The position numbers and the translations under genes were made by a program. From a virus, in the IMG/VR virus record IMGVR_UViG_3300021963_000084, positions 1 to 64,000 of that record: DNA of 64,000 nt. One strand, 5' to 3'. Positions 758 through 41,496 of this stretch are shown in pieces (position 1 is the first letter of the stretch; every line of letters begins with the position of its first letter). The notes beneath the pieces were generated by a model. That model saw nothing but the letters and a program-made list of their open reading frames with translations. It made no database searches and was not told where the DNA came from.

Positions 758-1035
758 CTAATCCACTCCTACAAAAATACGAAGAACTCTACGGAAAGAA
801 GGAAGAACCAAAACCACAAAAGACACACACAGAAAAACTGAAAGAACTTCGGGATACTTCTACTATTCCAATCACAAAACTCACAACTCACGATATTGAT
901 AGTATTAACGATAGTTTCTTACAGATTGCTGAAAAGGTAAAAAACAAAGAGGCACAAGTAACTTCTATGAATATGGATTATGAACATCAAACTCGCACAC
1001 AAAGAATTACTTTTGAGGTTTTGACCAATTTTTGA
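754..1035 (+). CDS. Hypothetical protein, 93 aa
   Basis: The family is not recognised. The N-terminal third is very rich in Lys, Glu and Pro and probably extended or helical; the C-terminal part has alternating hydrophobic residues suggesting beta structure. It is the last cistron of the ATGA-coupled trio. Its stop lies inside the first promoter cassette (1023-1079), so the operon end and the next gene's control region overlap. Confidence 0.7.
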   Translation: MTNPLLQKYEELYGKKEEPKPQKTHTEKLKELRDTSTIPITKLTTHDIDSINDSFLQIAEKVKNKEAQVTSMNMDYEHQTRTQRITFEVLTNF

Positions 1036-1079
1036 ACTGGCACAGGGAGACCCCACAAGGTCTCCTATTGGTCTATAAT
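1023..1079 (+). promoter_or_regulatory. Early-type promoter cassette, copy 1
   Basis: The right half-site ACTGGCA (1036-1042) is perfect and the left half is degenerate. A perfect 7-bp hairpin (GGAGACC at 1046-1052, GGTCTCC at 1059-1065) fills the spacer. The -10 TATAAT is at 1074-1079, 28 nt before the ATG at 1102. There is no recognisable -35 at the 17-nt position and no Shine-Dalgarno in the leader. Confidence 0.65.
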
Positions 1080-1101
1080 ACTCTTATAAGCAACCAAACC
1101 G

Positions 1102-1428
1102 ATGATTGACCTCTCTCAACTGACCGAAGACCAAATCAACGAACTTCAACTCCAAATCCAAAAACATAAGGAAGAACAAAAACACAAAGATAATCTAAAA
1201 AATCTAAAAGGTTATAAAGTGACCTTTTATGTGAGGTTTGACCCTGAAAAGCATAAGAATGATATGCTTACGAATGATGGAAACCTTGATGAAGGACTTT
1301 TTACTGACTATTTGTGTGATAATCTTGTTACAGACCTGATTGAGGATTTGGGATTGTGTGGTTATGAGGATGTTAGTTATCCTAATGTGGAAGTAGCAAC
1401 CCAAAAAGATATTGAAGAGAAGTTTTGA
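1102..1428 (+). CDS. Hypothetical protein, 108 aa
   Basis: The family is not recognised. Residues 1-38 form a highly charged Gln/Lys/Glu helix, probably coiled coil, followed by an acidic alpha/beta part. It is a single-gene transcription unit behind cassette copy 1. The leader after the predicted transcription start is about 16 nt, A/C-rich, and without a Shine-Dalgarno. Confidence 0.7.
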   Translation: MIDLSQLTEDQINELQLQIQKHKEEQKHKDNLKNLKGYKVTFYVRFDPEKHKNDMLTNDGNLDEGLFTDYLCDNLVTDLIEDLGLCGYEDVSYPNVEVATQKDIEEKF

Positions 1429-1485
1429 GGACACCTGAAGAACTGGCACAGAGGCACTCCAAATGCCCCTGTGATGCCTTATAAT
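1429..1485 (+). promoter_or_regulatory. Early-type promoter cassette, copy 2
   Basis: Half-sites GGACACC (1429-1435) and ACTGGCA (1442-1448) are separated by 6 nt. The spacer can fold into a stem pairing CACAGAGGCA with TGCCCCTGTG, with one mismatch. TATAAT at 1480-1485 is 28 nt before the ATG at 1508. The sequence from the -10 to the ATG is almost identical to copy 1. Confidence 0.7.
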
Positions 1486-1507
1486 ACTCTCATAAGCAAC
1501 CAAACCG

Positions 1508-1699
1508 ATGACTGAAGAACAAATCCTACAACTTGCTGAAAATCACCTAACTCTTGAAAAGTGGGAGGACATTTGTTGGAAGGCAGATACTTTACAACTC
1601 TTAAAGTTTGCCCGAGAACTTTGTGATAAGTGCAAATGGGAAGGATATTATGAAGGTTATGAGATGTGTTCTATTGATATGGGAGATGAGAATGTATGA
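1508..1699 (+). CDS. Hypothetical protein, 63 aa
   Basis: The family is not recognised. It is a small acidic protein with several Cys and Trp residues (Cys near residues 24, 39, 42 and 53). It is the first gene of a long compact operon of small genes running to 4479, transcribed from cassette copy 2. The TGA overlaps the ATG of the next gene in an ATGA junction. Confidence 0.7.
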   Translation: MTEEQILQLAENHLTLEKWEDICWKADTLQLLKFARELCDKCKWEGYYEGYEMCSIDMGDENV

Positions 1700-1935
1700 C
1701 TAAACTTTCTACACAAACACAAGCAATCATAGATGCTGCTGATGAAGTATTTTCTCACGGAGGAACAATTAGAGAGGGTTTTGCTGCTGCTCTTCGTGTT
1801 CTTGCTGATAATGTTGCCCCTGAAAATTATGCCTGTTTTTCGGGGCATAGAGAGTGGGATGAAGCACTTGAAACAAGAAATGAAAGTATTCGTGAGGCAA
1901 TTTTAGATATTGCTACTGAATTGGAGGCAATCTGA
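1696..1935 (+). CDS. Hypothetical protein, 79 aa
   Basis: The family is not recognised. It is Ala-rich and mostly helical with many acidic residues. It starts in an ATGA overlap with the upstream gene, and its stop shares a base with the next ATG (TGATG). It has no membrane segment. Its position within the overlapping small-gene operon is the only context available. Confidence 0.7.
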   Translation: MTKLSTQTQAIIDAADEVFSHGGTIREGFAAALRVLADNVAPENYACFSGHREWDEALETRNESIREAILDIATELEAI

Positions 1936-2153
1936 TGACTGACGAACAAAAACTCACACATCTCCTCAAAGTTCTCAAAAATTACGCAGAACAACCAACT
2001 TGTTATAATCTAAATCCTGATTATGAATACCCACACCACAGTTGGGATATTTTTGAAGATGGTTCTGATTATGGTGAGATTACCTTTGCCCGCACACTTT
2101 TAGAACAGATTGGTGTAGAGTTTAAGTATCCTTGTATGGAGGAAAATGACTAA
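1935..2153 (+). CDS. Hypothetical protein, 72 aa
   Basis: The family is not recognised. It is acidic and rich in Tyr and His in the middle, with a helical N-terminus (TDEQKLTHLLKVLKNY). Its end overlaps the next gene by 8 nt in an ATGACTAA arrangement. The same junction appears at 3113 and 11291, which supports both start choices. Confidence 0.7.
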   Translation: MTDEQKLTHLLKVLKNYAEQPTCYNLNPDYEYPHHSWDIFEDGSDYGEITFARTLLEQIGVEFKYPCMEEND

Positions 2154-2358
2154 CAAAAAAGAAGTAGCACAAAAAGTTTTTGAAGCCTTCTGGAAGAATG
2201 AACCACATCCGTGTAATGTTGATGGGTATGAGATTGCTAATGCTCTCCGTGAGTTAGTAGCAGAACTCCAATACTATCAATTTAAAGAGGATGTAGAGGA
2301 TATGGTGCTTGATGCCCGTGCTATACTTGATGTATGTGATGAGTTGGAGAACCTATGA
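2146..2358 (+). CDS. Hypothetical protein, 70 aa
   Basis: The family is not recognised. The protein is small, acidic and helical. Its start overlaps the upstream stop by 8 nt (ATGACTAA), and its stop overlaps the next start (ATGA). It resembles its neighbour at 1696-1935 in composition and in the recurring pattern AREL/LREL followed by an acidic stretch, so the two may be paralogues, but this is weak. Confidence 0.7.
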   Translation: MTNKKEVAQKVFEAFWKNEPHPCNVDGYEIANALRELVAELQYYQFKEDVEDMVLDARAILDVCDELENL

Positions 2359-2531
2359 CTGAAACCAAATACCTAGTCAGTTGGAAATCAGACACTCAAC
2401 GCACTCGTAAAGAAGCATATTTTGATACTCTTTGGGGTGCTGAAACGTGGTATAATGAGAAACTCACAGAGGGTAGGAAACCAAAACTCTGGCAGGAAGA
2501 AACCACCACGATTTTGAGGAAACTGAAATGA
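2355..2531 (+). CDS. Hypothetical protein, 58 aa
   Basis: This is a short gene placed between two ATGA overlaps (2355 with the upstream stop, 2528 with the downstream start). The product is Thr-, Trp- and Lys-rich, begins MTETKYLVSWKS and ends in a basic tail. The N-terminal strand and SWKSDTQRTRKEA pattern look like a small beta/alpha fold. No family was recognised. Its codon use matches its neighbours. Confidence 0.65.
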   Translation: MTETKYLVSWKSDTQRTRKEAYFDTLWGAETWYNEKLTEGRKPKLWQEETTTILRKLK

Positions 2532-2938
2532 CTGCTTGTAAATACTATGATTGTGGTTGGTGTTATGCTCCTGATGATGTAGAAACATCTGCCAGTTCTC
2601 AAAGTGCCTGTTTTGACTATGATTTTTGTCCTTATTTGAAATCACAAATGACTAAAGAAATTGACATCTCAAAAGTTCTCATAGAAGGAGACACCGCAAC
2701 CATTATGGGTGTGAAGTATAAGAGAGTAGAATCAGAAACAAAAACTCTTCGTGATGTGATTTATGATTGGTGGGATGATGTTTTTACGGAACAAACCTCT
2801 ATCAATGATTTGATTGATCGTATTGAAGCGTGGTTACCTAAAGAACAATCCGCACAAGGATCACAGAATGTCTATGTTGAATGTTCTGTAGAAGGTTTCA
2901 ACGATTGCCTCAACAAAATTAAACAAAATTTACGATGA
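2528..2938 (+). CDS. Hypothetical protein with N-terminal Cys cluster, 136 aa
   Basis: The first 40 residues carry cysteines in the pattern CKYYDCGWCYAP ... C ... DFCPYL, which looks like a small metal-binding or disulfide knuckle (inference). The remainder is an acidic alpha/beta region with DWWDDVF near residue 82 and a helical C-terminus. Similar Cys-headed small proteins are common in T4-like cyanophages, but their function is unknown to me. It is coupled by ATGA on both sides. Confidence 0.7.
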   Translation: MTACKYYDCGWCYAPDDVETSASSQSACFDYDFCPYLKSQMTKEIDISKVLIEGDTATIMGVKYKRVESETKTLRDVIYDWWDDVFTEQTSINDLIDRIEAWLPKEQSAQGSQNVYVECSVEGFNDCLNKIKQNLR

Positions 2939-3120
2939 CCCGATTTATTAAGAATCCTGATGAGATTGTCCTAGAGGACGTTCGTATGCTACACTATGAG
3001 ACGATGGAAGAGGGACGTGCCGTGTGGTTGGGAATCTATCTCAACAACGGTAAAATCTATCACCTTAACATCGGTGGTGACAATCTTTATGTGAACTATT
3101 CTGATGAATCAAATGACTAA
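2935..3120 (+). CDS. Hypothetical protein, 61 aa
   Basis: The family is not recognised. The product is mainly beta by pattern, acidic, and ends SDESND. It starts at an ATGA junction and ends in an ATGACTAA overlap with the next gene. It sits in the middle of the 1508-4479 operon. Confidence 0.7.
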   Translation: MTRFIKNPDEIVLEDVRMLHYETMEEGRAVWLGIYLNNGKIYHLNIGGDNLYVNYSDESND

Positions 3121-3430
3121 TCCACTGAAACTAAATGAAGATGCTCCCGCATTTTCTTATACACCTGCGGAACTATTCAACGTGATTATGTGCATCATCG
3201 CACATCCAAATCCAACACTCACGGAGCACGATAAAGCTCGTGCTATGGCAGTATTTCTGACCTTCGCAGATTACCTTGATAATTATACTGAGAGTGACAA
3301 CAACTTCGGTCATATCATCTACGAATCGGATTCTACCGATTTTGAGGGATATGTGCTACAATTACTAGGTAAGAAACCGCTGGATTTCTTCAAACCTGAC
3401 GTTGAAAAGATTCTCGATAGAATGAAATGA
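3113..3430 (+). CDS. Hypothetical protein, 105 aa
   Basis: The family is not recognised. It is helical, with a hydrophobic stretch around residues 20-30 that is too short and interrupted to call a membrane segment. I chose the ATG at 3113 because it recreates the ATGACTAA overlap used at 2146 and 11291. An in-frame ATG at 3104 would add three residues. Its stop overlaps the next ATG. Confidence 0.7.
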   Translation: MTNPLKLNEDAPAFSYTPAELFNVIMCIIAHPNPTLTEHDKARAMAVFLTFADYLDNYTESDNNFGHIIYESDSTDFEGYVLQLLGKKPLDFFKPDVEKILDRMK

Positions 3431-3657
3431 ACAAGTTTGAATACACTCGTGCTGTTATTCTGGGTGCTGTCCTAGGTATGTCATCACTCTCTCTGGTGTA
3501 TATGATCAACGTAGCACTGGACACACAACCGAAAGAACCACCAAAACCACAATCTAATTTTGAAGTGGTGGATCATTATAAGGACTGTGATCTTCTACGC
3601 TGGTCTTATCGTCAACTCTCTGAATACAAATACGTTCTTCATTGCCCAAACAAATGA
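3427..3657 (+). CDS. Small membrane-anchored protein, 76 aa
   Basis: Residues 9-31 form one hydrophobic segment, followed by a Pro/Lys linker (TQPKEPPKPQ) and a C-terminal domain with two cysteines (Cys52 and Cys73). The likely topology is an N-terminal anchor with an external or periplasmic tail, possibly disulfide-bonded. That is inferred from pattern only. The function is unknown. It is coupled by ATGA on both sides. Confidence 0.7.
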   Translation: MNKFEYTRAVILGAVLGMSSLSLVYMINVALDTQPKEPPKPQSNFEVVDHYKDCDLLRWSYRQLSEYKYVLHCPNK

Positions 3658-3935
3658 AACTCCTAGATTACGAAACCTATGAGGATTATGGTAAGGAATG
3701 GTTTATTCAAGTCCTCAGATTTAAAAAGTTTGCCCTACTTGACCTGACAGTTCAATGGGATGAATATCCTGCAACCGAACTCTTTCCTTATATCATTCTC
3801 AGTGTCGGTGCTCATCATTTGTTAGGATTTACATTCAGATGGAAAGCATTTGAGATGAGTTGTGATATAATTGATGTAGCACCACGCAATCTAGAATGGT
3901 ATCGTAATCACGGAAAGTATGATGACATCGACTGA
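3654..3935 (+). CDS. Hypothetical protein, 93 aa
   Basis: The family is not recognised. The ATG at 3654 overlaps the previous stop (ATGA) and is preferred over an in-frame TTG at 3642. The product is rich in aromatic residues (Trp, Tyr, Phe) with alternating hydrophobic strands in the centre. Its 3' end overlaps the next gene by 17 nt. Confidence 0.7.
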   Translation: MKLLDYETYEDYGKEWFIQVLRFKKFALLDLTVQWDEYPATELFPYIILSVGAHHLLGFTFRWKAFEMSCDIIDVAPRNLEWYRNHGKYDDID

Positions 3936-4113
3936 AACATTTACACAAACATCTCACGAACCTTATATCAGACATCATTATCGTCTGACAACAACTGAAG
4001 GGCAAGTCTATCAATTTGATAATTATGCTGATCTGATGCACCAATGGTTAGCACTTCCGAATACAATGGAGAGCATTATAGAGGTGATTGATGTGAAGAA
4101 AGGGTTTAAGTAA
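3919..4113 (+). CDS. Hypothetical protein, 64 aa
   Basis: The family is not recognised. It begins MMTSTETF, so either of two adjacent ATGs (3919 or 3922) could be the start. Residues 20-50 have a beta-strand pair followed by a helix (TTEGQVYQFDNYADLMHQW), a layout common in small phage proteins. The gene ends directly against the next ATG without a gap. Confidence 0.65.
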   Translation: MMTSTETFTQTSHEPYIRHHYRLTTTEGQVYQFDNYADLMHQWLALPNTMESIIEVIDVKKGFK

Positions 4114-4479
4114 ATGATTAACAACGGAAATGGTGAAACACTAGAACATCGTATGACCTATGATGATCTTATAAAAGGATTGAACTATGATCGTGATTCT
4201 GTTATTAGTGAATTGACACAGAGTAGAATTGACACAGAGATTCAATACAATGGATTAATTGAAGCACTTCATAGAATGTGTAAGTACAATGACATTGAAG
4301 TTGAACCTGAATTCTTTCTACAGGATGAACAAGTATTATATAATGAGTATTATGATGCTGTTAAAGGTTGGTATGAATCAAAGACCAATGAAGAAATTGT
4401 AGAGTTTTATCGTGTACACGAACCTTATGTGTTTGGTATGATCGATTCTCTGCAGGCATTATTTGATAAATCACCCTAA
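4114..4479 (+). CDS. Hypothetical acidic helical protein, 121 aa
   Basis: This is the last gene of the 1508-4479 operon. The product is strongly acidic and helical, with many Glu, Asp and Tyr residues, and contains no membrane segment. Its ATG immediately follows the upstream TAA. It is followed by the 468-nt non-coding segment with DnaA-box-like sites. No family was recognised. Confidence 0.7.
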   Translation: MINNGNGETLEHRMTYDDLIKGLNYDRDSVISELTQSRIDTEIQYNGLIEALHRMCKYNDIEVEPEFFLQDEQVLYNEYYDAVKGWYESKTNEEIVEFYRVHEPYVFGMIDSLQALFDKSP

Positions 4480-4518
4480 TTAACGTATCAATTAAATGTT
4501 ATTTTAAATATAGTTGAG

Positions 4519-4552
4519 TTTTCCACACCCCTGTGGAAAAACCTGTGGAAAA
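4519..4552 (+). promoter_or_regulatory. Cluster of three DnaA-box-like sites
   Basis: TTTTCCACA at 4519-4527 and its reverse complement TGTGGAAAA at 4532-4540 form a perfect 9-bp inverted repeat with a 4-nt gap. A second TGTGGAAAA follows at 4544-4552. TTTTCCACA is the DnaA box form reported for Synechococcus, and differs by one base from the E. coli TTATCCACA. Three exact copies within 34 nt are unlikely by chance. The arrangement could also be a hairpin. Confidence 0.55.
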
Positions 4553-4644
4553 CTATGATAATGGAGGATCTTATAGTCATCTAAGCCCGCAGTGTACCGA
4601 TTTGTCAAGCGATTGTATAAAATCTTCACAAAACCTCCACCCCC

Positions 4645-4673
4645 TTGACAAAACTCTCAAATGCCCCTATAAT
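4645..4673 (+). promoter_or_regulatory. Consensus sigma70 promoter P1
   Basis: TTGACA at 4645-4650 and TATAAT at 4668-4673 are separated by exactly 17 nt, a perfect consensus match. No ORF of useful size follows before the tRNA at 4948. It may therefore transcribe the tRNA, an untranslated RNA, or a primer RNA. Confidence 0.75.
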
Positions 4674-4736
4674 GAACTCTGTGAGGGTTCAAAGGAACAA
4701 TAAGGTCCTCTGATACCCTCCGATACCAGAAACCCC

Positions 4737-4765
4737 TTGACAACCCTCATAATGCCCTCTATAAT
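4737..4765 (+). promoter_or_regulatory. Consensus sigma70 promoter P2
   Basis: TTGACA at 4737-4742 and TATAAT at 4760-4765 are separated by exactly 17 nt. The surrounding sequence is a near copy of P1 (CCCTTGACAA at the -35, ATGCCC in the spacer, TATAATGA at the -10), so P1 and P2 look like a 92-bp duplication. P2 is upstream of the hairpin array and the tRNA-Leu. Confidence 0.75.
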
Positions 4766-4794
4766 GATTCTGTTCGGTTCTGAGAAACTCTTAT

Positions 4795-4927
4795 GATTTG
4801 AGAAAATCTTAAAAATCTCAGAAATCTTAAATCTGTGGTTTTTATAAAAATCTCAAAAACTTTAAAATTAAGATTTTAATGAATTCTATAATTCTATGAA
4901 TATCTTATAAGTTATAATTATAAGATA
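4795..4927 (+). repeat. Three-hairpin AT-rich array A
   Basis: Hairpin A1 has arms 4795-4803 and 4816-4826 (2-nt bulge) with loop AAATCTTAAAAA. A2 has 13-nt arms at 4844-4856 and 4868-4880 with 11 of 13 pairs and an 11-nt loop. A3 has perfect 10-bp arms at 4901-4910 and 4918-4927. The same order and loop sequences recur in array B at 6732-6869. Confidence 0.6.
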
Positions 4928-4947
4928 CTTATAGAGTTATTATATAA

Positions 4948-5030
4948 GGGACTATGGTGAAATTGGTAAACACAACAGACTTAAAATCTGTCGGATCTTA
5001 TCCTTGTCGGTTCAAGTCCGACTAGTCCTA
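4948..5030 (+). tRNA. tRNA-Leu(UAA)
   Basis: A full cloverleaf is visible. The acceptor stem is GGGACTA with TAGTCCT (one G-U pair) and the discriminator base is A. The anticodon stem is ACAGA/TCTGT with loop CTTAAAA, giving anticodon UAA. A long type-II variable arm (GGAT/ATCC) fits leucine. The T arm is GTCGG-TTCAAGT-CCGAC. The 3' CCA is not encoded. It reads UUA, a codon used by the AT-rich phage genes, so it probably supplements the host pool. It lies downstream of P1 and P2 and is followed within 2 nt by a 9-bp hairpin. Confidence 0.95.
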
Positions 5031-5033
5031 TTG

Positions 5034-5090
5034 TGACAGTCTTTGAACTGTCACAGAGTACTTGACTTCTAAATACAAGTGCTTTATAGT
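5034..5090 (+). promoter_or_regulatory. Early-type promoter cassette, copy 3
   Basis: This is the best dyad: TGACAGT (5034-5040), 6 nt, ACTGTCA (5047-5053), extending to perfect 9-bp arms at 5032-5040 and 5047-5055. A spacer stem pairs AGTACTTG with CAAGTGCT (one G-U). The -10 TATAGT is at 5085-5090, 28 nt before the ATG at 5113. As RNA, the dyad also forms a hairpin just after the tRNA and may end or help process its transcript. Confidence 0.7.
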
Positions 5091-5112
5091 TAACAAGTAA
5101 ACAAACGATTCA

Positions 5113-5271
5113 ATGTCTTCAACCAAATTTGAATACTATCTAGAGACTGCTGAAGGACTTACTCAAGAAGGGTATGTTACAGCAAATAACCATCAGAATG
5201 CTATCAAAAAAGTAAAAAAAGAGAATAAGAAATTCAAAATTACTTATTTGGACGTTCAACCTCTGTACTGA
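5113..5271 (+). CDS. Hypothetical small basic protein, 52 aa
   Basis: This short gene begins MSSTKFEYYLETAEGL, with a Lys-rich centre (about residues 31-42) and a hydrophobic C-terminus. It is first in a four-gene set behind cassette copy 3. The leader after the -10 is A/C-rich without a Shine-Dalgarno. The next gene starts 1 nt after its TGA. No family was recognised. Confidence 0.7.
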   Translation: MSSTKFEYYLETAEGLTQEGYVTANNHQNAIKKVKKENKKFKITYLDVQPLY

Positions 5272-5272
5272 T

Positions 5273-5404
5273 ATGGACAAGGAATTCTACAATCTCACCG
5301 AAGAAGCATATAAAATCCTCTGTGAAGAAGGGGATGTGCTTGATGTTTTGGATGAAATCGAGTATGATGATTATGAATTCACTGGAGACTTTGACTATGA
5401 TTGA
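5273..5404 (+). CDS. Hypothetical acidic peptide, 43 aa
   Basis: It begins MDKEFYNLTEEAYKILCEEG and ends in a run rich in Asp, Tyr and Glu. More than a third of its residues are acidic. It overlaps the next gene by 8 nt (ATGATTGA), which supports both reading frames. Its size and charge fit the small host-takeover-type proteins of T4-like phages, but no function can be assigned. Confidence 0.65.
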   Translation: MDKEFYNLTEEAYKILCEEGDVLDVLDEIEYDDYEFTGDFDYD

Positions 5405-5633
5405 CACTTACGTTGTTGTTGAAGGTGTTGCTTACTGGGAAAAGGATAGCAACTATTATACCACATCAGTAAATGCTGACAACACTATTGACTGGAAGAA
5501 TGCTACAAAGATTGATATTAAATCCTCTGACGGACCTGATATCGGCACTGTACATTCAATCTATGATACACTACAGTTCATCAAATCATCACAACGACGA
5601 CTACTTAATGAAACCCGAAAACTTTCTGTCTGA
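5397..5633 (+). CDS. Hypothetical protein, 78 aa
   Basis: The start at 5397 (MIDTYVVVEG) is chosen because it overlaps the previous stop by 8 nt. A longer in-frame start at 5322 would run through the upstream gene out of frame. The product has a strand-rich N-terminal half (VVVEGVAYWEKDSNYYTT) and a basic C-terminus. It resembles a small beta-barrel-like protein, with no family assigned. It overlaps the next gene by 26 nt. Confidence 0.65.
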   Translation: MIDTYVVVEGVAYWEKDSNYYTTSVNADNTIDWKNATKIDIKSSDGPDIGTVHSIYDTLQFIKSSQRRLLNETRKLSV

Positions 5634-5751
5634 CAGTACTTTAGACCTGCTCAGTGATAAAGCAGATGCTGAAGCATTTGCTATGGATATCGAGCAGAAA
5701 GCAGCAGCATTAGAAATCACAGTTGATTACTATATGCAAGAGTTTATGTGA
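5608..5751 (+). CDS. Hypothetical acidic helical protein, 47 aa
   Basis: It begins MKPENFLSDSTLDLLSD and is strongly acidic and helical. The start lies inside the end of the previous gene. Its TGA stop (5749-5751) is also the first three bases of the dyad of cassette copy 4, so gene end and control site are fused. No family was recognised. Confidence 0.65.
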   Translation: MKPENFLSDSTLDLLSDKADAEAFAMDIEQKAAALEITVDYYMQEFM

Positions 5752-5805
5752 CAGTTTCTGAACTGTCCACTGATTGCCCCACTGGTCACCCTGGTGGGGT
5801 ATCTT
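5749..5805 (+). promoter_or_regulatory. Early-type promoter cassette, copy 4
   Basis: TGACAGT (5749-5755), 6 nt, ACTGTCC (5762-5768). The spacer holds CCCCAC...GTGGGG, able to pair. The -10 is TATCTT at 5800-5805, 31 nt before the ATG at 5831. The left half-site contains the upstream stop codon. Confidence 0.65.
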
Positions 5806-5830
5806 ATAAGGGTCGTCAGGAATTCAATCG

Positions 5831-6004
5831 ATGAATTACTTCAACACCAACATCATTAAGAATCACGATGACCACCTGTACCTGAACAACAGTATGGCAG
5901 AGTGTTATGATTTCTGCCTGAGTGTTGCTGAACAGTTTGATAATATTGCCGATCAGGCATGGTGGTATGATCAGAAACAAGGTCATATCTGCTACGACGT
6001 ATGA
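5831..6004 (+). CDS. Hypothetical protein, 57 aa, possibly frameshifted
   Basis: It begins MNYFNTNIIKNHDDHLYLNN and is rich in Tyr, Asp and Asn. In the annotated frame it stops at 6004. Read one base over from about 5997, translation continues YDEWECVCPKVTHNAL to a TGA at 6048-6050, 13 nt before the better start of the next gene. That extension looks like genuine protein (Trp, Cys-x-Cys-Pro), so a one-base change, a sequencing error or a programmed shift is possible. Confidence 0.55.
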   Translation: MNYFNTNIIKNHDDHLYLNNSMAECYDFCLSVAEQFDNIADQAWWYDQKQGHICYDV

Positions 6005-6063
6005 TGAATGGGAATGTGTTTGCCCTAAAGTTACACACAATGCCCTCTGATTTTTATTTTAAA

Positions 6064-6318
6064 ATGACCGTGACTTCTCCTATTGCTCGTATGATCACTG
6101 CTGAAGAATCGAGTGCAATTGCATTCGTTAAGGTGGAAGATCTGAACGTGACTGTTGCTTATCAGTCGAATCCTGATACTCAGTATACCTACACTGCTGA
6201 TGCTGAATTTGCACAGCAACTTGTGCAAGTGCTGGAGGCAGAGGATCTGGCAGGCATTTCTCTGGGTGGTATGATTACCGATGCCCGCCGTGTGGGGGAC
6301 CTGCAGCAGACGGTCTGA
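6064..6318 (+). CDS. Conserved-looking phage hypothetical protein, 84 aa
   Basis: The start at 6064 (MTVTSPIARMITAEES) is preferred. An in-frame ATG at 6001 adds 21 residues that look like out-of-frame translation of the preceding gene. The product pattern is a small beta sheet (AFVKVEDLNVTVAYQS), then YTYTADAEFAQQLVQVL and a C-terminal ARRVGDLQQTV. It resembles a KTSC-like small fold only weakly. Its 3' end overlaps the dyad of cassette copy 5. Confidence 0.6.
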   Translation: MTVTSPIARMITAEESSAIAFVKVEDLNVTVAYQSNPDTQYTYTADAEFAQQLVQVLEAEDLAGISLGGMITDARRVGDLQQTV

Positions 6319-6366
6319 GAAGTGTCACAAGGGGGGTTGCAATGCCCCCCACCCCCCTGGTATATT
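6308..6366 (+). promoter_or_regulatory. Early-type promoter cassette, copy 5
   Basis: AGACGGT (6308-6314), 6 nt, AGTGTCA (6321-6327). The spacer hairpin is GGGGGG with CCCCCC around an 8-nt loop. The -10 TATATT is at 6361-6366, 33 nt before the ATG at 6394. The left half-site lies inside the upstream coding sequence. Confidence 0.6.
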
Positions 6367-6393
6367 ACATTTGTTCCTGAGGGATTCACCCCC

Positions 6394-6720
6394 ATGAGAA
6401 AGATCGAACGTCTGATGAATGCTGCCATCACCCGTGAGGTTGATTGGAAGTGCTCTAACACTGAGGTTCGTAATGAGGATGGTGTGAGCAAAGTGTTCCT
6501 GCACGGCAATCTGATTGCTGAGATTGGTGATACTTTCCTCCGTCTCTTTGATGGTGGTTGGCAATCCAACACCACCAAATCCCGTTTGAATGCTATTCTT
6601 CGTGAGCACGGTGCTGGTAGTGAGTGTGTGTTTCAAAAGCAGTGGCAATGGTTCATTACCATGAATACTGACAGGGGTATGGAAACTGTTCCTTTTCGTA
6701 GTTCTATGAAACTGGGGTAA
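6394..6720 (+). CDS. Conserved phage hypothetical protein, 108 aa
   Basis: The start at 6394 (MRKIERLMNAAITREVDW) sits at the expected distance from the cassette -10; an upstream in-frame start at 6322 would include the promoter. The central pattern VSKVFLHGNLIAEIGDTFLRLFDGG followed by NTTKSRLNAIL and an aromatic C-terminus (QKQWQWFI) is familiar from many bacteriophage and cyanophage hypothetical proteins. Its function is unknown. It is followed by a 13-bp hairpin and a T run (6732-6775), a likely terminator. Confidence 0.75.
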   Translation: MRKIERLMNAAITREVDWKCSNTEVRNEDGVSKVFLHGNLIAEIGDTFLRLFDGGWQSNTTKSRLNAILREHGAGSECVFQKQWQWFITMNTDRGMETVPFRSSMKLG

Positions 6721-6731
6721 ATCTTAAAATT

Positions 6732-6869
6732 TGAGATTCTGTAGAAATCTTAAAAACTACAGAATCTCATTTTTTATGAAAATCTTAAAAGTTTAAAAAT
6801 TAAGAATTTCATAAAAACTTTAATATTAATAATACTATAAGAGTATTATAATAATAACTCTTATAGTAT
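6732..6869 (+). repeat. Three-hairpin AT-rich array B
   Basis: B1 has perfect 13-bp arms at 6732-6744 and 6757-6769, with loop AAATCTTAAAAA, followed by six T. B2 has 13-nt arms at 6776-6788 and 6800-6812 (12 of 13 pairs, 11-nt loop). B3 has perfect 13-bp arms at 6832-6844 and 6857-6869 (12-nt loop). All three have nearly the same size. B1 can act as an intrinsic terminator. B1 and B2 share loops and arm sequence with A1 and A2 at 4795-4880. Confidence 0.7.
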
Positions 6870-6874
6870 AAACA

Positions 6875-6907
6875 ATGTCCTTTGATTTACTAATTGATTA
6901 TGTCTAA
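6875..6907 (+). CDS. Possible 10-aa leader peptide
   Basis: ATG at 6875 opens a 10-codon reading frame (MSFDLLIDYV) whose stop lies inside the start of the next gene, overlapping it by 8 nt. The overlap type matches true neighbours in this region (ATG inside the upstream stop area). Translational coupling is possible. No evidence for expression beyond the arrangement. Confidence 0.3.
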   Translation: MSFDLLIDYV

Positions 6908-7037
6908 GCAAGTAATGATTTCTATGCTGAATCAAGCAAACAATGGTCAAGAATTGCTTACTATTCTTGACAGTCTCACTGTTGAAGATAACAGCAGTGA
7001 GTATAAAGAACCTACTAGTGAGTTTATCGACTTCTGA
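6900..7037 (+). CDS. Hypothetical small protein, 45 aa
   Basis: It begins MSKQVMISMLNQANNGQELL and is followed by an acidic tail. Helical pattern, Gln/Asn-rich. It sits directly after hairpin array B and has no dyad cassette; TATAGT at 6862-6867, inside the right arm of B3, is the only -10 candidate. Very similar short proteins are common in T4-like cyanophages as far as I recall; the function is unknown. Confidence 0.65.
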   Translation: MSKQVMISMLNQANNGQELLTILDSLTVEDNSSEYKEPTSEFIDF

Positions 7038-7059
7038 TATCAATTGTCAAGTGTACTAG

Positions 7060-7117
7060 TGACACTTTGACAAGTGGCACAGGGTCAGTTGCAGAGCATT
7101 TGATTCTGTGCCATACT
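7060..7117 (+). promoter_or_regulatory. Early-type promoter cassette, copy 6
   Basis: TGACACT (7060-7066), 6 nt, AGTGGCA (7073-7079). GGCACAG at the right half-site can pair with CTGTGCC just before the -10. The -10 is CATACT at 7112-7117, 31 nt before the ATG at 7143. Confidence 0.6.
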
Positions 7118-7142
7118 ACATTTGTTGAATTGAAAAACACCA

Positions 7143-7364
7143 ATGATCAAACCTTTCATCAACACTTTGCTGTTCAACATTGCCACCATTGTTGCTATTG
7201 TGGTGGGCATTGTATCTTATACTTATCGTGCTGCCCGAGTTTGGTATAATGAGGGTGGACGTGAGTTTCTAATCAACACCGCTGCTAAGTTTGCTGCTGG
7301 TGTTAACAAACTGTCTGAGCGGGTATACTACACTCTGGAGGATGCAGAGACTGTTACTGTGTGA
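7143..7364 (+). CDS. Small membrane protein, 73 aa
   Basis: Residues 5-27 form one hydrophobic segment (NTLLFNIATIVAIVVGIVSY), followed by Arg, Trp and Tyr residues and a soluble helical tail. The likely position is the inner membrane with the tail in the cytoplasm (positive-inside). The function is unknown; proteins of this pattern occur in other cyanophages as hypotheticals. Its TGA is the start of the dyad of cassette copy 7. Confidence 0.7.
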   Translation: MIKPFINTLLFNIATIVAIVVGIVSYTYRAARVWYNEGGREFLINTAAKFAAGVNKLSERVYYTLEDAETVTV

Positions 7365-7419
7365 CAGTTGTAGAGGTGGCATAGTATTCTCCCAAATGAC
7401 AGGATGCTGTGCCTATAAT
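7362..7419 (+). promoter_or_regulatory. Early-type promoter cassette, copy 7
   Basis: TGACAGT (7362-7368, containing the upstream stop), 6 nt, GGTGGCA (7375-7381). A long spacer stem pairs GGCATAG with CTGTGCC. TATAAT at 7414-7419 is 28 nt before the ATG at 7442. Confidence 0.7.
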
Positions 7420-7441
7420 GACTTCAGTTCAATTCACCACG

Positions 7442-7585
7442 ATGCAACTAACATTTGAGCAGGTAGATGCCCTGCTGTCACTCATTGAGTTTCACGATGA
7501 TTGGGATGAAGTGAGTGAGCACGTTGGCACAAATGTTGCCGAACTTTATGACATTCTGACTGAACTTCGTGATGAACTTGCTTGA
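7442..7585 (+). CDS. Hypothetical acidic protein, 47 aa
   Basis: It begins MQLTFEQVDALLSLIEFH and consists of two short acidic helices. An in-frame ATG at 7418 overlaps the -10 and is less likely. It is the first gene of a three-gene unit; the next start is 1 nt past its stop. No family was recognised. Confidence 0.65.
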   Translation: MQLTFEQVDALLSLIEFHDDWDEVSEHVGTNVAELYDILTELRDELA

Positions 7586-7586
7586 C

Positions 7587-7760
7587 ATGAATCGCTCTGA
7601 ACTTCAGGATCGAATGGTTCAACAAATGTTGGACGACATGGATCTTAAAACTGTGATGTGCCTATGTTATGATTATCTGATGGAGGGTTACGATAAGTAT
7701 TCAGATGCAGAATTGACTGAAGAGGTTAATCACTACTATCCCGAACTTCTGGAGAATTGA
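7587..7760 (+). CDS. Hypothetical protein, 57 aa
   Basis: It begins MNRSELQDRMVQQMLDDMD. It is acidic and helical, with YDYLMEGYDKYSDAELTEEV in the second half. It starts 1 nt after the previous stop; an in-frame ATG at 7569 would overlap the upstream gene by 17 nt. It ends 2 nt before the next ATG. The function is unknown. Confidence 0.65.
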   Translation: MNRSELQDRMVQQMLDDMDLKTVMCLCYDYLMEGYDKYSDAELTEEVNHYYPELLEN

Positions 7761-7762
7761 TT

Positions 7763-7981
7763 ATGCAATTCCTGCTCACACATGTCACGTTTGATTGTTA
7801 TCTTGATGATGAGGATTGGACTGAAAAAGATCAAGATGAAACCGAACAACATTTGCCCAAAGCATACATCGGCACTGTTTGGCAAGCAGATGATGAAGAG
7901 GATTTGTTAGAGCAAATTAGTTCTAAATCTGGTTGGTGTGTTGATAGTTACGATTACACTATTATGCCCGCTAAAATGTAA
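7763..7981 (+). CDS. Hypothetical acidic protein, 72 aa
   Basis: The ATG at 7763 is chosen over an in-frame TTG at 7757. The product begins MQFLLTHVTFDCYLDDEDW; Asp and Glu make up roughly a quarter of it. The strand-turn-helix arrangement is unassigned. It is the last AT-rich gene before the GC-rich island, which begins within about 10 nt of its stop. Confidence 0.65.
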   Translation: MQFLLTHVTFDCYLDDEDWTEKDQDETEQHLPKAYIGTVWQADDEEDLLEQISSKSGWCVDSYDYTIMPAKM

Positions 7982-8067
7982 CAAACTGGGCGGCCGCTTC
8001 GCTGCCCCTTCCCTCCCCTCCCGCCCTCTAGGTTAAGGGCAGAGTTGGGCAGAGTCAAGGGGCAGAG
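7982..8067 (+). repeat. GC-rich intergenic segment with three GGGCAGAGT copies
   Basis: It opens with a 7-bp stem (GGGCGGC with GCTGCCC, one G-U) around a 6-nt loop at about 7988-8007, then a pyrimidine run. GGGCAGAGT occurs at 8037-8045, 8047-8055 and 8060-8068. No gene is visible. The hairpin may terminate the upstream operon. The segment marks the sharp start of the GC-rich island. Confidence 0.5.
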
Positions 8068-8126
8068 TGCCAGTTTGAGAGGTGGCACAGCAGGGGTCGC
8101 AGTGGGGTTTGACCCGTGCCTATAAT
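8068..8126 (+). promoter_or_regulatory. Early-type promoter cassette, copy 8
   Basis: TGCCAGT (8068-8074), 6 nt, GGTGGCA (8081-8087), so TGCCA and TGGCA pair. The spacer holds GGGTC...GACCC. TATAAT at 8121-8126 is 30 nt before the ATG at 8151. This is the first cassette in the GC-rich island. Confidence 0.65.
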
Positions 8127-8150
8127 GACTGCAGTTCAAACGACAGACCT

Positions 8151-8282
8151 ATGTGGGATGAGATTCAAGACATGCCTGGGGAGATTTTTGATCTGGAGGA
8201 GTGGGGTCACCCTATGGCAGAGTGCTGGCACGACATGGAGTTGAATGGGACAGATGAAGAGGTGGCACAGCAACCCGCCTGA
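8151..8282 (+). CDS. Hypothetical acidic peptide, 43 aa
   Basis: It begins MWDEIQDMPGEIFDLEEW. Highly acidic with Trp and Met residues. The ATG at 8151 is chosen by its 30-nt distance to TATAAT; an upstream in-frame ATG at 8082 lies inside the dyad. The last codons also encode the dyad of cassette copy 9, so the C-terminus (EEVAQQPA) may be shaped by the promoter. Confidence 0.6.
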   Translation: MWDEIQDMPGEIFDLEEWGHPMAECWHDMELNGTDEEVAQQPA

Positions 8283-8305
8283 CCCCCACCCTGACCCCTT
8301 ATACT
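8248..8305 (+). promoter_or_regulatory. Early-type promoter cassette, copy 9
   Basis: GGACAGA (8248-8254), 6 nt, GGTGGCA (8261-8267), wholly within the upstream coding sequence. The -10 TATACT is at 8300-8305, 30 nt before the ATG at 8330. No spacer hairpin is evident here. The 22 nt around the -10 recur at 8539, 9045 and 9298. Confidence 0.6.
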
Positions 8306-8329
8306 GATCTCATACCAAACGAAACGACC

Positions 8330-8497
8330 ATGACCCGTTACACCGTCTACGTTCCCTCTGCCCCCCACGAGAGCGAGAGCACCCATGATCTCGATCGTGC
8401 CTGGGATCTGTGCCTCTCCCTCTCTGAAGATTTCGGGTATGCACAGGTGAAGCAAGATGGTATGATCATCGGAGACTACACGAACGGGGGGATGTGA
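8330..8497 (+). CDS. Hypothetical protein, 55 aa
   Basis: It begins MTRYTVYVPSAPHESES and reads as strand, loop, helix, two strands (YAQVKQDGMIIGDYTNGG). GC-rich codons (CTC, ACC, GAG) dominate, unlike genes before 7.98 kb. The stop TGA is the first part of the dyad of cassette copy 10. No family was recognised. Confidence 0.65.
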   Translation: MTRYTVYVPSAPHESESTHDLDRAWDLCLSLSEDFGYAQVKQDGMIIGDYTNGGM

Positions 8498-8553
8498 CAC
8501 TCTAGGAACTGACACACGGGGTCACCACAGACCCCACCCTGACCCCTTATACT
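8495..8553 (+). promoter_or_regulatory. Early-type promoter cassette, copy 10
   Basis: TGACACT (8495-8501, containing the upstream stop), 6 nt, ACTGACA (8508-8514). The spacer has a perfect stem GGGGTC-ACCACA-GACCCC. TATACT at 8548-8553 is 28 nt before the ATG at 8576. Confidence 0.7.
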
Positions 8554-8575
8554 GATCTCAGTTCACACAACACCA

Positions 8576-9001
8576 ATGACCGTGACCCTGACCGCTTCCT
8601 ACCGTGAGATGCTCGCTGCTGACACTGTTAGCAAGATCGATGAGTTGCTCGATGAGAACTATTGCCTCGATGACATTCTGAAGTTCATCGATGAGTATAA
8701 CGAGCGTATGTTCGTTGATAACTATGAGGAGTATGTTCGTTGTGGTGAAGCAATCGGTTATGATGCCGTTGATGCTTATGCTAACGAGAACGGCATCGAT
8801 AACATCGACGGTTGCGATGAACGCTATCGTGGTGTGTATGAGAGCACTGCAGATTTCGCTGAAGAATACTACAGCGAACTGTACGATGTGCCCTGTGCTC
8901 TGGTAGTAGATTGGGAGGCAACGTGGGACACTTCGCTGCGGTACGATTTCACCGCTTGTGAGGCAGGATACCGCACCTGCCACATTTTCAGCGATTACTA
9001 G
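8576..9001 (+). CDS. ardA: ArdA-like antirestriction protein, 141 aa
   Basis: ArdA proteins mimic DNA and inhibit type I restriction enzymes. Seen here: 34 Asp/Glu against 9 Lys/Arg; a central block DERYRGVYESTADFAEEYYSE (positions about 81-101), which matches the ArdA pattern of an aromatic-Gly-aromatic-Ser followed by an acidic helix; then a C-terminal VDWEATWDTSLRYDF ... GYRTCHIF block in the place of the family's final strand. ArdA is usually about 165 aa, so this one is somewhat short. It lies alone behind cassette copy 10 in the GC-rich island. Expression early in infection would suit the role. Assignment rests on pattern recognition. Confidence 0.65.
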   Translation: MTVTLTASYREMLAADTVSKIDELLDENYCLDDILKFIDEYNERMFVDNYEEYVRCGEAIGYDAVDAYANENGIDNIDGCDERYRGVYESTADFAEEYYSELYDVPCALVVDWEATWDTSLRYDFTACEAGYRTCHIFSDY

Positions 9002-9059
9002 GACGGTTCAGGGGGTGGCACACGCTGCCCCCACCGACCCCCACCTGACCCCTTATACT
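9001..9059 (+). promoter_or_regulatory. Early-type promoter cassette, copy 11
   Basis: GGACGGT (9001-9007), 6 nt, GGTGGCA (9014-9020). TATACT at 9054-9059 is 27 nt before the ATG at 9081. The left half-site is identical to that of copy 12. The first base is the last base of the ArdA-like gene. Confidence 0.65.
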
Positions 9060-9080
9060 GTTCTCAGTTCAGACAACCCT

Positions 9081-9290
9081 ATGGGATACCCCATCAACAC
9101 CAGCAACAGCACCGCCATCGACACGCTGACGGTCAACCCCATCACGGGCACGGTTCGGGTCCGCTTCCAGTCCTACCCTACCGTCCGCCCCTACAGGATG
9201 AAGGCATCCCGCCGTGAGATTCTCGCCCTGCTGTGGGACAGCAACCGCTCCCTAGGACGGTGGGTGAACTGGCACTGTGTCGCTGCCTGA
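9081..9290 (+). CDS. Hypothetical protein, possibly KTSC-like, 69 aa
   Basis: It begins MGYPINTSNSTAIDTLTVN. The pattern of Ser-rich start, two strands (TLTVNPITGTVRVRF), an aromatic strand and a helix (REILALLWDSNRSLGRWVN) is reminiscent of KTSC-type small domains, but key spacing differs, so this is only a suggestion. The ATG at 9081 fits the cassette distance; an in-frame ATG at 8958 lies inside the ArdA-like gene. The 3' part encodes the dyad of copy 12. Confidence 0.6.
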   Translation: MGYPINTSNSTAIDTLTVNPITGTVRVRFQSYPTVRPYRMKASRREILALLWDSNRSLGRWVNWHCVAA

Positions 9291-9312
9291 CCCCCACCTG
9301 ACCCCTTATACT
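9255..9312 (+). promoter_or_regulatory. Early-type promoter cassette, copy 12
   Basis: GGACGGT (9255-9261), 6 nt, ACTGGCA (9268-9274), inside the upstream coding sequence. TATACT at 9307-9312 is 29 nt before the ATG at 9336. Confidence 0.65.
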
Positions 9313-9335
9313 GATCTCATCAGCAACGGACCCCG

Positions 9336-9512
9336 ATGCAAACTCTCAAAGCAACCGCCATCGCCCTGCTAGTCATCATACTGGCAACCGCTGGTTACGT
9401 TGCTTTGCTTCGCAATGGCAATGCCCGCATCGAAGCGAAGTGCCAGGCATCAGGTGGGCAGGTGCTTATGACACCTGGTCAAGTGTCCCGCTGCCTGCTC
9501 CCTGTTCGCTGA
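9336..9512 (+). CDS. Small membrane-anchored or secreted protein, 58 aa
   Basis: It begins MQTLKATAIALLVIILATAG: residues 6-25 are a hydrophobic segment after a Lys, consistent with a signal anchor. The remaining 33 residues hold two Cys (about 36 and 53) that could form a disulfide outside the cytoplasm. The function is unknown. The dyad of copy 13 lies in its coding end. Confidence 0.65.
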   Translation: MQTLKATAIALLVIILATAGYVALLRNGNARIEAKCQASGGQVLMTPGQVSRCLLPVR

Positions 9513-9523
9513 TCTGCTACAAT
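9469..9523 (+). promoter_or_regulatory. Early-type promoter cassette, copy 13
   Basis: TGACACC (9469-9475), 6 nt, AGTGTCC (9482-9488), inside the upstream gene. The -10 TACAAT at 9518-9523 is 28 nt before the ATG at 9546. The dyad-to-minus-10 distance is 49 nt, the shortest of the set. Confidence 0.55.
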
Positions 9524-9545
9524 ACTCTCACACGCAACCGATCCG

Positions 9546-9707
9546 ATGCGAATCGAAGTCCGTTACCAGACCCCCTACAACGCTTGTGAGTGGCGGTCAC
9601 AGTGGTTCCCCACCCTGGCAGAGGCAGAGCGTATGGTAGAATTCTACCGCTCCTGTGGGTCACCCTCCCACATCGCCCCTTCCTCCCTCGCTCAGTTCGA
9701 TCGCTGA
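9546..9707 (+). CDS. Hypothetical protein, 53 aa
   Basis: It begins MRIEVRYQTPYNACEWRSQW: strand, loop, then a helix with LAEAERMVEFYRSCG. This resembles a minimal beta-alpha unit. Two Cys are present. It is followed after 4 nt by the next gene, so the two probably form one transcript. No family was recognised. Confidence 0.6.
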   Translation: MRIEVRYQTPYNACEWRSQWFPTLAEAERMVEFYRSCGSPSHIAPSSLAQFDR

Positions 9708-9711
9708 TCTT

Positions 9712-9852
9712 ATGGCAAACCTCATCCGCCTCGCTCTGGTCGCTGCCATCTGCCTGATTTTCTCTCAGACCCTAGGATCGGTGCTCGCCCTCGCCCAGAC
9801 CCTTGACCGTGTGACAGCAGACAAGGTGGCACAGATCGCTGCCCTAGAGTGA
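9712..9852 (+). CDS. Small membrane peptide, 46 aa
   Basis: It begins MANLIRLALVAAICLIFSQT; residues 4-27 are hydrophobic, followed by a helical soluble tail. The ATG at 9712 is 4 nt after the previous stop; an in-frame ATG at 9655 is inside the previous gene. The tail codons (DRVTADKVAQIAALE) include the dyad of copy 14. Confidence 0.6.
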   Translation: MANLIRLALVAAICLIFSQTLGSVLALAQTLDRVTADKVAQIAALE

Positions 9853-9870
9853 CCGCCGACCCTGTAGACT
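9812..9870 (+). promoter_or_regulatory. Early-type promoter cassette, copy 14
   Basis: TGACAGC (9812-9818), 6 nt, GGTGGCA (9825-9831), inside the upstream gene. The -10 TAGACT is at 9865-9870, 30 nt before the ATG at 9895. Confidence 0.6.
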
Positions 9871-9894
9871 GATCACATCGAAACGAAACGACCG

Positions 9895-10065
9895 ATGACC
9901 ATCACCGAAGCAAACCAGATCTGGTTCGATTGCTACCAGAGCACCGACTACACCCTCTGGAGCAAGTACACCAGCGACCAGCGCCTGCAGGCAATCCAGA
10001 CCCGTGACCGCCACGCCAACGGCGAGGGACAGTGGGGCATCTGGAACATCAGCGACCGCCACTGA
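9895..10065 (+). CDS. Hypothetical protein, 56 aa
   Basis: It begins MTITEANQIWFDCYQSTDYT and is rich in Trp, Gln, Asp and Arg, with a polar, probably helical, C-terminal half. GC-rich codon use (CAG, ACC, CGC, GAC). The family is not recognised. It has its own cassette, copy 14, and a short A/C-rich leader. Confidence 0.65.
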   Translation: MTITEANQIWFDCYQSTDYTLWSKYTSDQRLQAIQTRDRHANGEGQWGIWNISDRH

Positions 10066-10084
10066 GGCGGATCGCCTGTAGACT
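10027..10084 (+). promoter_or_regulatory. Early-type promoter cassette, copy 15
   Basis: The left half-site GGACAGT (10027-10033) is good; the right half TCTGGAA (10040-10046) is degenerate. The -10 TAGACT at 10079-10084 is 30 nt before the ATG at 10109. It lies within the end of the upstream gene. This is the weakest dyad on the right side. Confidence 0.45.
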
Positions 10085-10108
10085 TCTCTCAGTTCAAACG
10101 ACACACCG

Positions 10109-10306
10109 ATGGCACTGTACAACATCGCAACCGATCTCAAGACCCGCGAGACTGTGTGGGTCATGACCAATGTGGTGAAGGGTCGCCCCCAGTTGAACTC
10201 CCACCGCGAGGGCACCGCAGGTCGCTCGCTCGCTGCCTCTGGTGTTGACGGACTGCCCGCCTGGGAGTGGGCAACCATGCACACCAACTATCGGGGGCGG
10301 GGTTGA
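10109..10306 (+). CDS. Hypothetical basic protein, 65 aa
   Basis: It begins MALYNIATDLKTRETVWVMT, followed by a basic, Gly- and Arg-rich stretch and a Trp-containing end. The N-terminal strand pair suggests a small beta fold. The family is not recognised. GC-rich codons as in its neighbours. Confidence 0.65.
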   Translation: MALYNIATDLKTRETVWVMTNVVKGRPQLNSHREGTAGRSLAASGVDGLPAWEWATMHTNYRGRG

Positions 10307-10331
10307 CCCCTGACCCCTGACCCTGTAGAAT
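10303..10331 (+). promoter_or_regulatory. Sigma70-like promoter of the last island gene
   Basis: TTGACC (10303-10308), 17-nt spacer, TAGAAT (10326-10331); 32 nt to the ATG at 10358. Here a recognisable -35 replaces the dyad, which is absent. The -35 overlaps the upstream stop codon. This contrast supports the view that dyad cassettes need an activator. Confidence 0.55.
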
Positions 10332-10357
10332 TCTCTCAAGTCAACCGACACCGACCG

Positions 10358-10552
10358 ATGGCACTGAACACCCTCCCCGCTCCGATGACCGCCGCCGAAC
10401 TCACCGCTAAGATCGAGGCAGGCGAATTCAAGATCAAGCGTCTGCCGACCCGCCGCCCTCGCAAGGCAGATCTGGTGATGACCCGTGTGATGGGCAGCAG
10501 CGGGTCAGCACGCTTTATGGCAGACAACGACCACCAGACCCGCTGGCAGTGA
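10358..10552 (+). CDS. Hypothetical basic protein, 64 aa
   Basis: It begins MALNTLPAPMTAAELTAKIE, followed by GEFKIKRLPTRRPRKADLV, a basic stretch that could contact nucleic acid (inference), and a polar end. The helix then basic segment is the only structural hint. It is the last gene of the GC-rich island. No family was recognised. Confidence 0.6.
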   Translation: MALNTLPAPMTAAELTAKIEAGEFKIKRLPTRRPRKADLVMTRVMGSSGSARFMADNDHQTRWQ

Positions 10553-28592: not shown

Positions 28593-28600
28593 TATAAATA
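28593..28600 (+). promoter_or_regulatory. Late promoter TATAAATA
   Basis: TATAAATA begins 37 nt upstream of the gp8 ATG, in the gap after the 2639-aa gene. It matches the T4 late -10 consensus. AAAGGA downstream is a possible ribosome site. Confidence 0.7.
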
Positions 28601-40251: not shown

Positions 40252-40258
40252 TCCTTCC

Positions 40259-40287
40259 TTGACAACCCTTATAAATTATAGTATGAT
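40259..40287 (+). promoter_or_regulatory. Consensus sigma70 promoter for the glycosyltransferase
   Basis: TTGACA (40259-40264), 17 nt, TATGAT (40282-40287). A TATAAA sequence lies in the spacer. It begins 8 nt after the fibre stop and 23 nt before the ATG at 40311. It suggests host-polymerase expression of the enzyme independent of late transcription. Confidence 0.75.
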
Positions 40288-41492: not shown

Positions 41493-41496
41493 AACT

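Follow-up and report, generated by a model that had tools for sequence, protein, structure and literature searches.

The first 10.1 kb of a cyanophage sequence from IMG/VR carry fifteen copies of a promoter cassette in which an inverted repeat, or dyad, stands at a fixed distance upstream of a -10 element. The dyad is probably an operator for a dimeric activator, presumably supplied by the phage, that would drive early transcription in T4-like cyanophages. The window, i.e. the whole stretch of 64,000 nucleotides (nt) under study, corresponds to positions 1 to 64,000 of the 82 kb virus record IMGVR_UViG_3300021963_000084. Judged by its genes, which include Kyano_Gp96 and a gp6-like baseplate protein, this contig is a T4-like cyanophage of the Kyanoviridae. 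Its closest DNA relatives are S-SRM01 and S-PM2.

A preliminary description of this region had placed a dyad in front of fifteen gene starts, from 1102 to 10109, and all fifteen were recovered. At 15/15 sites, the dyad start precedes the -10 by 49-53 nt and the -10 start precedes the ATG by 27-33 nt; at site 7060, the first range requires CATACT at +52, the mechanical top score there being TACATT at +57. The cassettes and one contrasting promoter are as follows.

1023 to 1101, plus strand: cassette 1, dyad 1023-1042 with a weak left half, hairpin GGAGACC-CCACAA-GGTCTCC, -10 TATAAT at 1074-1079, ATG at 1102 opening a 108 aa open reading frame (ORF).
1429 to 1507, plus strand: cassette 2, dyad 1429-1448, hairpin, -10 TATAAT at 1480-1485, ATG at 1508.
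5034 to 5112, plus strand: cassette 3, perfect dyad TGACAGT-N6-ACTGTCA at 5034-5053, -35 TTGACT at 5062-5067, -10 TATAGT at 5085-5090, ATG at 5113.
5749 to 5830, plus strand: cassette 4, dyad 5749-5768 over the upstream stop codon, hairpin CCCCACTGG...CCTGGTGGGG, weak -10 near 5800, ATG at 5831.
6308 to 6393, plus strand: cassette 5, dyad 6308-6327, hairpin GGGGGG...CCCCCC, -10 TATATT at 6361-6366, ATG at 6394 opening a gene of the Kyano_Gp96 family (PF23790).
7060 to 7142, plus strand: cassette 6, dyad 7060-7079, hairpin GGCACAG...CTGTGCC, -10 CATACT at 7112-7117, ATG at 7143.
7362 to 7441, plus strand: cassette 7, dyad 7362-7381, hairpin, -10 TATAAT at 7414-7419, ATG at 7442.
8068 to 8150, plus strand: cassette 8, dyad 8068-8087, hairpin, -10 TATAAT at 8121-8126, ATG at 8151.
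8248 to 8329, plus strand: cassette 9, dyad 8248-8267, no strong hairpin, -10 TATACT at 8300-8305, ATG at 8330.
8495 to 8575, plus strand: cassette 10, dyad 8495-8514, hairpin GGGGTC...GACCCC, -10 TATACT at 8548-8553, ATG at 8576 opening an ArdA-like antirestriction gene.
9001 to 9080, plus strand: cassette 11, dyad 9001-9020, -10 TATACT at 9054-9059, ATG at 9081.
9255 to 9335, plus strand: cassette 12, dyad 9255-9274, -10 TATACT at 9307-9312, ATG at 9336.
9469 to 9545, plus strand: cassette 13, dyad 9469-9488 (minus-strand match best), -10 TACAAT at 9518-9523, ATG at 9546.
9812 to 9894, plus strand: cassette 14, dyad 9812-9831, weak hairpin, -10 TAGACT at 9865-9870, ATG at 9895.
10027 to 10108, plus strand: cassette 15, weak dyad 10027-10046, hairpin CCGCC-ACTGA-GGCGG, -10 TAGACT at 10079-10084, ATG at 10109.
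10303 to 10331, plus strand: dyad-less contrast promoter, TTGACC-17-TAGAAT.

The dyad is real, but the consensus first proposed for it, KGACRGT-N6-RSTGKCA, is too tight: few window sites match it exactly, most deviate at one to three positions and the left half is poor at 1023. With up to two mismatches allowed, the pattern is matched 29 times in the window against 6.4 +/- 2.6 times in shuffled sequence (maximum 13), and the strong matches are confined to 1-10.1 kb. The claim that a -35 is missing at 17 nt holds for most sites and is not universal, as site 5034 (TTGACT-17-TATAGT) is the sole cassette of the window with a good -35 (1/15). The promoter at 10303 is indeed devoid of a dyad and has the -35 spacing ascribed to it. 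Between the dyad and the -10, the spacer of about 30 bp is as a rule without a -35 and usually holds a terminator-like hairpin; such a fold, at -8 kcal/mol or below, is predicted in 11/15 cassettes and had gone unmentioned in the preliminary description. The leader that follows is about 30 nt long, without evident Shine-Dalgarno sequence. The genes behind it are small and mostly unknown, the ArdA-like and Kyano_Gp96 genes being among them. The idea of single-gene units is partly right: several units comprise more than one gene, and the hairpin is an additional component of the cassette.

The same configuration is found across the family. A matrix was derived from the window sites and used to scan S-SRM01, S-PM2, S-CRM01, Syn9, P-SSM2, S-RIM32, S-RSM4, S-SM2, S-SSM7 and the contig itself, a unit being defined as a dyad match with a -10 at 49-54 nt from the dyad start and the reversed matrix serving as control. 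These ten genomes yielded 165 units versus 15 with the reversed matrix (16 versus 2 on the whole 82 kb contig). Units are present in 10/10 genomes, with about 21 in S-PM2, about 20 in S-SSM7 and few in S-SM2; those of Syn9 include units at 47206, 48560, 49080, 51002 and 52998, within the small-gene cluster gp67-gp90, and others at 127494 and 148744. The best -10 offset, pooled over the genomes, peaks at 51-52 nt. This peak was found again in 120 IMG/VR contigs which were retrieved by the dyad pattern alone and were not used to build the matrix: the -10 stands at 51 nt in 74 cases and at 52 nt in 39, and 123/261 dyads (47%) have it within 50-54 nt, compared with 313/5808 random positions (5.4%). 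Folding of the spacer reaches a z of -1.65 in the unit set versus -0.34 in control stretches. At least five of the six -35 positions are matched in 10% of the set, versus 0.9% in shuffles.

From 155 promoter-configured sites, the consensus was refined to WGTGMCASTT-N4-AASTGKCACA, nearly identical in two independent genome sets. The dyad is thus a 24-bp imperfect palindrome, with its center some 54 bp upstream of the transcription start that is expected from the position of the -10. Its downstream half, usually TGGCA or TGTCA, is slightly stronger than the upstream half, TGACA or TGCCA. The left half also emerges, unselected, if the choice of sites considers just the right half and the -10 (C4 88%, A5 81%, G2 78%). 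The spacing of 51-52 nt is kept across highly diverged genomes with unrelated spacer sequences. It is extremely improbable that the fifteen copies are those of one recently duplicated promoter whose common spacing reflects descent only: some cassettes are nearly identical, such as 1034-1109 and 1440-1515 in the window, but the spacing is maintained, together with both half-sites, in genomes and contigs whose spacers and flanks are unrelated.

An RNA stem should show covariation at its variable positions. Pairing at positions 1/20, 3/18 and 6/15 of the dyad does not exceed that of shuffled pairs, the most frequent 3/18 combination is an A-G mismatch, and covariation between the half-sites is again absent under the selection by right half and -10. 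The half-sites do not covary, and the dyad is therefore a DNA operator rather than an RNA hairpin; the latter was rejected under the two site-selection schemes. In its broader form, this alternative makes the dyad part of a stem-loop, at the 3' end or terminator of the transcript before it, and promoters would merely be sited after terminators. In its favor, dyads frequently overlap the stop codon that precedes them, a second hairpin comes next, taking in some relatives the form of a classic U-tract terminator, and strict palindromes occur at gene ends too. This alternative is nevertheless very unlikely, since mismatches between the independent half-sites are frequent and the -10 spacing stays fixed although the hairpins vary. 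The comparison of sites provides good support for the dyad acting as protein-bound DNA, with RNA polymerase at a fixed distance.

The origin of the binding protein was approached by looking for the dyad elsewhere. No excess over the reversed pattern was seen in 61 host-family genomes, and the dyad is at background in T4, S-TIM5, Ma-LMM01, P-SSP7, Syn5, P60 and the SAR11 phage HTVC008M (1 unit in the matrix scan of the latter), a set that includes T7-like cyanophages. A scan of cellular genome contigs for strict palindromes returned 64 contigs, many of them cyanobacterial. Most of the palindromes examined there are hairpins between genes or fall in coding sequence, and they have no -10 at 51 nt; 6 of 54 are accompanied by one at 50-54 nt, three of these six in a single contig. 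This contig (NHFO01000061.1), from a metagenome-assembled genome labelled Flavobacteriales TMED113, has three dyad promoters with the -10 at 51-52 nt and looks like a mis-binned cyanophage contig. Three Nostocales genomes carry perfect or near-perfect palindromes of the TGTGACAGTT/AACTGTCACA type, at the 3' end of purH in two of them and with the same flanks in the third; these look like terminator hairpins and have apparently nothing to do with the phage promoters. A host regulon was rejected on these scans.

No matching sites are found in host genomes, and the binder is therefore more likely to be encoded or delivered by the phage than to be a normal host regulator. That a normal transcription factor of marine Synechococcus or Prochlorococcus binds the dyad, the phage having copied its operator, is unlikely. 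Unless the phage injects an activator, early genes do depend on the host machinery in its unmodified form, and cyanophages are devoid of alt, modA, modB, motA and asiA (PMC2984593); such a factor is however at odds with the 61 host-family genomes and with cellular palindromes that, apart from the phage-like contig, show no -10 at 51 nt beyond background. When gene content was compared, the ORFs of Syn9 shared by 8/8 cyanophages and absent from HTVC008M numbered 25, a good many being shadow ORFs. One of them, gp97 (T4-GC 160), may be proposed as a weak candidate for the dyad-binding protein on the strength of its distribution and structural model. This small protein (54-80 aa) occurs in 420 phage records, all cyanophages, and has no convincing Pfam family. 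Its predicted structure has three helices, with a predicted local distance difference test score (pLDDT) of 90.5, and its matches in the PDB are weak, mostly to helix-turn-helix proteins, none being significant. The gene is absent from the contig, itself a fragment. A similar comparison starting from S-SSM7 brought up DUF7717, psbA, MazG, glutaredoxin-like and other proteins, with no obvious regulator among them. The operator, defined in sequence and geometry and absent from hosts, can serve as a probe for isolating its binding protein.

The position of the cassettes on the contig is consistent with early expression. The T4-type late promoter TATAAATA has eight copies on the contig, all on the plus strand and all from 28.6 kb onward; none is found in 1-28.5 kb, nor on the minus strand of the contig.

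28593 to 28600, plus strand: first T4-type late promoter TATAAATA, with further window copies at 41697, 42756, 53142 and 63554.

Dyads and late promoters thus occupy separate regions, and the matches are not spread evenly through the structural region. The small, mostly unknown genes of 1-10.1 kb and the ArdA-like antirestriction gene are as expected of early genes, and their early timing is predicted from this gene content and layout. The operator would allow early genes to be called in any cyanophage contig, uncultured phages included. Within the structural region lie four very large ORFs (2545-3363 aa), at 20669-28588, 30235-37872, 44069-53134 and 53415-63506, which are probably tail-fibre or adhesin genes. 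In Syn9, the unit cluster contains a conserved DUF7717 gene (gp69, 47472-47945; at 38060 in S-SSM7, with relatives in S-PM2, S-SRM01, P-SSM2, S-RIM32 and S-RSM4), located shortly downstream of a dyad promoter in most compared cyanophages and labelled an unknown conserved early gene.

The probable role of the dyad as an activator operator suggests a mechanism. A homodimeric protein of the helix-turn-helix type would occupy the palindrome, sharing a face of the DNA with RNA polymerase, and would recruit the latter in a class-I-like manner, replacing -35 recognition. The host polymerase would thereby be directed, through a sigma-70-type -10, to the phage early (host-takeover) genes. A more specific scenario is put forward tentatively: the activator would be supplied by the phage, perhaps injected or expressed from a dyad-independent promoter, and its binding to the 24-bp palindrome at -54 would replace -35 recognition in cyanomyovirus takeover. 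If true, this would be an early-promoter switch unlike Alt or MotA/AsiA of T4, with its operator inside recombination-prone promoter-terminator cassettes. How T4-like cyanophages perform the early switch of host RNA polymerase without Alt, ModA/B, MotA and AsiA was called unclear in 2010 (PMC2984593).

The preliminary description had proposed an activator or a modified polymerase at the dyad. A DNA-bound protein at a fixed distance from the polymerase is supported, and the arrangement of the sites suggests an activator rather than a repressor. A repressor operator, of phage or host, would shut the promoters off before or after some given stage, or block superinfecting phages. A symmetric operator at a fixed place fits any dimeric regulator, and -10-only promoters can be active unaided in cyanobacteria. 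A repressor is all the same quite unlikely: repressor operators normally overlap the -35, the -10 or the start site, whereas the dyad of about 165 units is centered near -54, farther upstream than the core of the polymerase footprint, and the absence of a -35 from most units points to promoters in need of assistance.

Several observations weigh against the activator reading. S-SM2 has only about four units. A -35-like TTG is retained in some units, mainly in S-SSM7, and the dyad is not always a replacement for the -35; in this phage, 13/20 units of the genome have a TTG at 16-18 nt, a promoter sub-variant, and a dense array of units lies at 38003-51752. In viral contigs, a few strict palindromes stand at the ends of genes and have no -10 placed 51 nt away. 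S-SSM7 has its 20 or so units and no recognizable gp97. Finally, activation, start sites and early timing are predictions from sequence, as are the identity of the binder and termination by the hairpin.

The cassettes also recur in front of different genes. The segment 1034-1080 of the window is 98% identical to S-PM2 8586-8633, where it precedes another gene, the window gene behind it being located elsewhere in S-PM2. Likewise, 1429-1513 shares 94% identity with S-SRM01 57329-57414 and 90% with S-PM2 9853-9937, with a different downstream gene each time. One cassette is found before different genes in three phages, and the cassettes therefore behave like the promoter-early stem-loop (PeSL) cassettes of T4-type phages, which, as relayed in PMC4503421, contain strong sigma-70 promoters (Arbiol 2010; Comeau 2014). 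Only a few PeSL-like features are named for S-PM2 and their role is doubted (PMC4503421), compared with the 21 or so dyad units counted in that genome by the present scan. The likeness lies in compact promoter and hairpin cassettes repeated between small accessory genes, with gene exchange evident at them. A stem-loop or terminator combined with a promoter between genes is present here in the 11 hairpin-bearing spacers, with termination as a prediction, and genome comparison of the window, S-SRM01 and S-PM2 points to exchange of neighbor genes. The strong sigma-70 -35/-10 pair of PeSLs is mostly lacking, as the scarcity of good -35 matches indicates; the dyad cassettes are mostly without a -35 and possess an upstream operator dyad instead. 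The hairpin would end the preceding transcript and insulate each unit, and the cassettes would serve as homology islands for gene shuffling. They offer a gene-exchange mechanism in a region of small unknown genes.

According to a 2016 study of Syn9 and P-TIM40 (Doron et al., ISME J 10:1437), a novel element distinct from MotA/AsiA reportedly controls the early genes of Syn9, and is said to be abundant and conserved in T4-like cyanophages. The dyad is probably this early-gene element of Doron et al. 2016, given that Syn9 has dyad units in its small-gene cluster. The motif itself is not printed in the literature citing that study, as far as examined. Novelty in cyanophages, claimed in the preliminary description, is thus not supported, since the element is family-wide and probably that published for Syn9. 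The operator geometry at -54, the independence of the half-sites, the negative host genomes and the exchange of cassettes are results of the present analysis.

Parts of this organization recur in other regulated promoters. The P2/P4 late promoters, activated by Ogr/Delta, have a dyad TGT-N12-ACA some 55 bp before the start and lack a good -35. This position agrees with that of the cyanophage dyad; the sequence does not, and P2 uses its element late. NtcA (GTA-N8-TAC) and CRP (TGTGA-N6-TCACA) likewise bind dyad operators in cyanobacterial promoters, with different sequence and spacing; the 155-site consensus does not fit the NtcA motif. The T4 middle promoters resemble the cassettes in combining a -10 with an activator site that replaces -35 recognition. 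Their MotA box is however a single site near -30, compared with a palindrome near -54, and no conserved MotA-type box near -30 appears in the -10-aligned consensus. Both motA and asiA are absent from cyanophages (PMC2984593).

Other features were observed around the cassettes. Tandem near-consensus dyad-less promoters of host type (TTGACA-17-TATAAT and similar) lie at 4641-4675 and 4733-4767, upstream of a tRNA-Leu (TAA) gene at 4948-5030 that ends four bases short of the perfect dyad at 5034; Rfam returned this tRNA only and no further family. AT-rich degenerate repeats of the AAATCTTAAAA type occupy two gene-free stretches, 4789-4902 and 6730-6834, and possibly mark a replication or regulatory region. 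Inside the dyad array, the G+C content rises at 8000-10500 to as much as 56%, against about 35-40% around it, which suggests a recent acquisition from a high-GC source.

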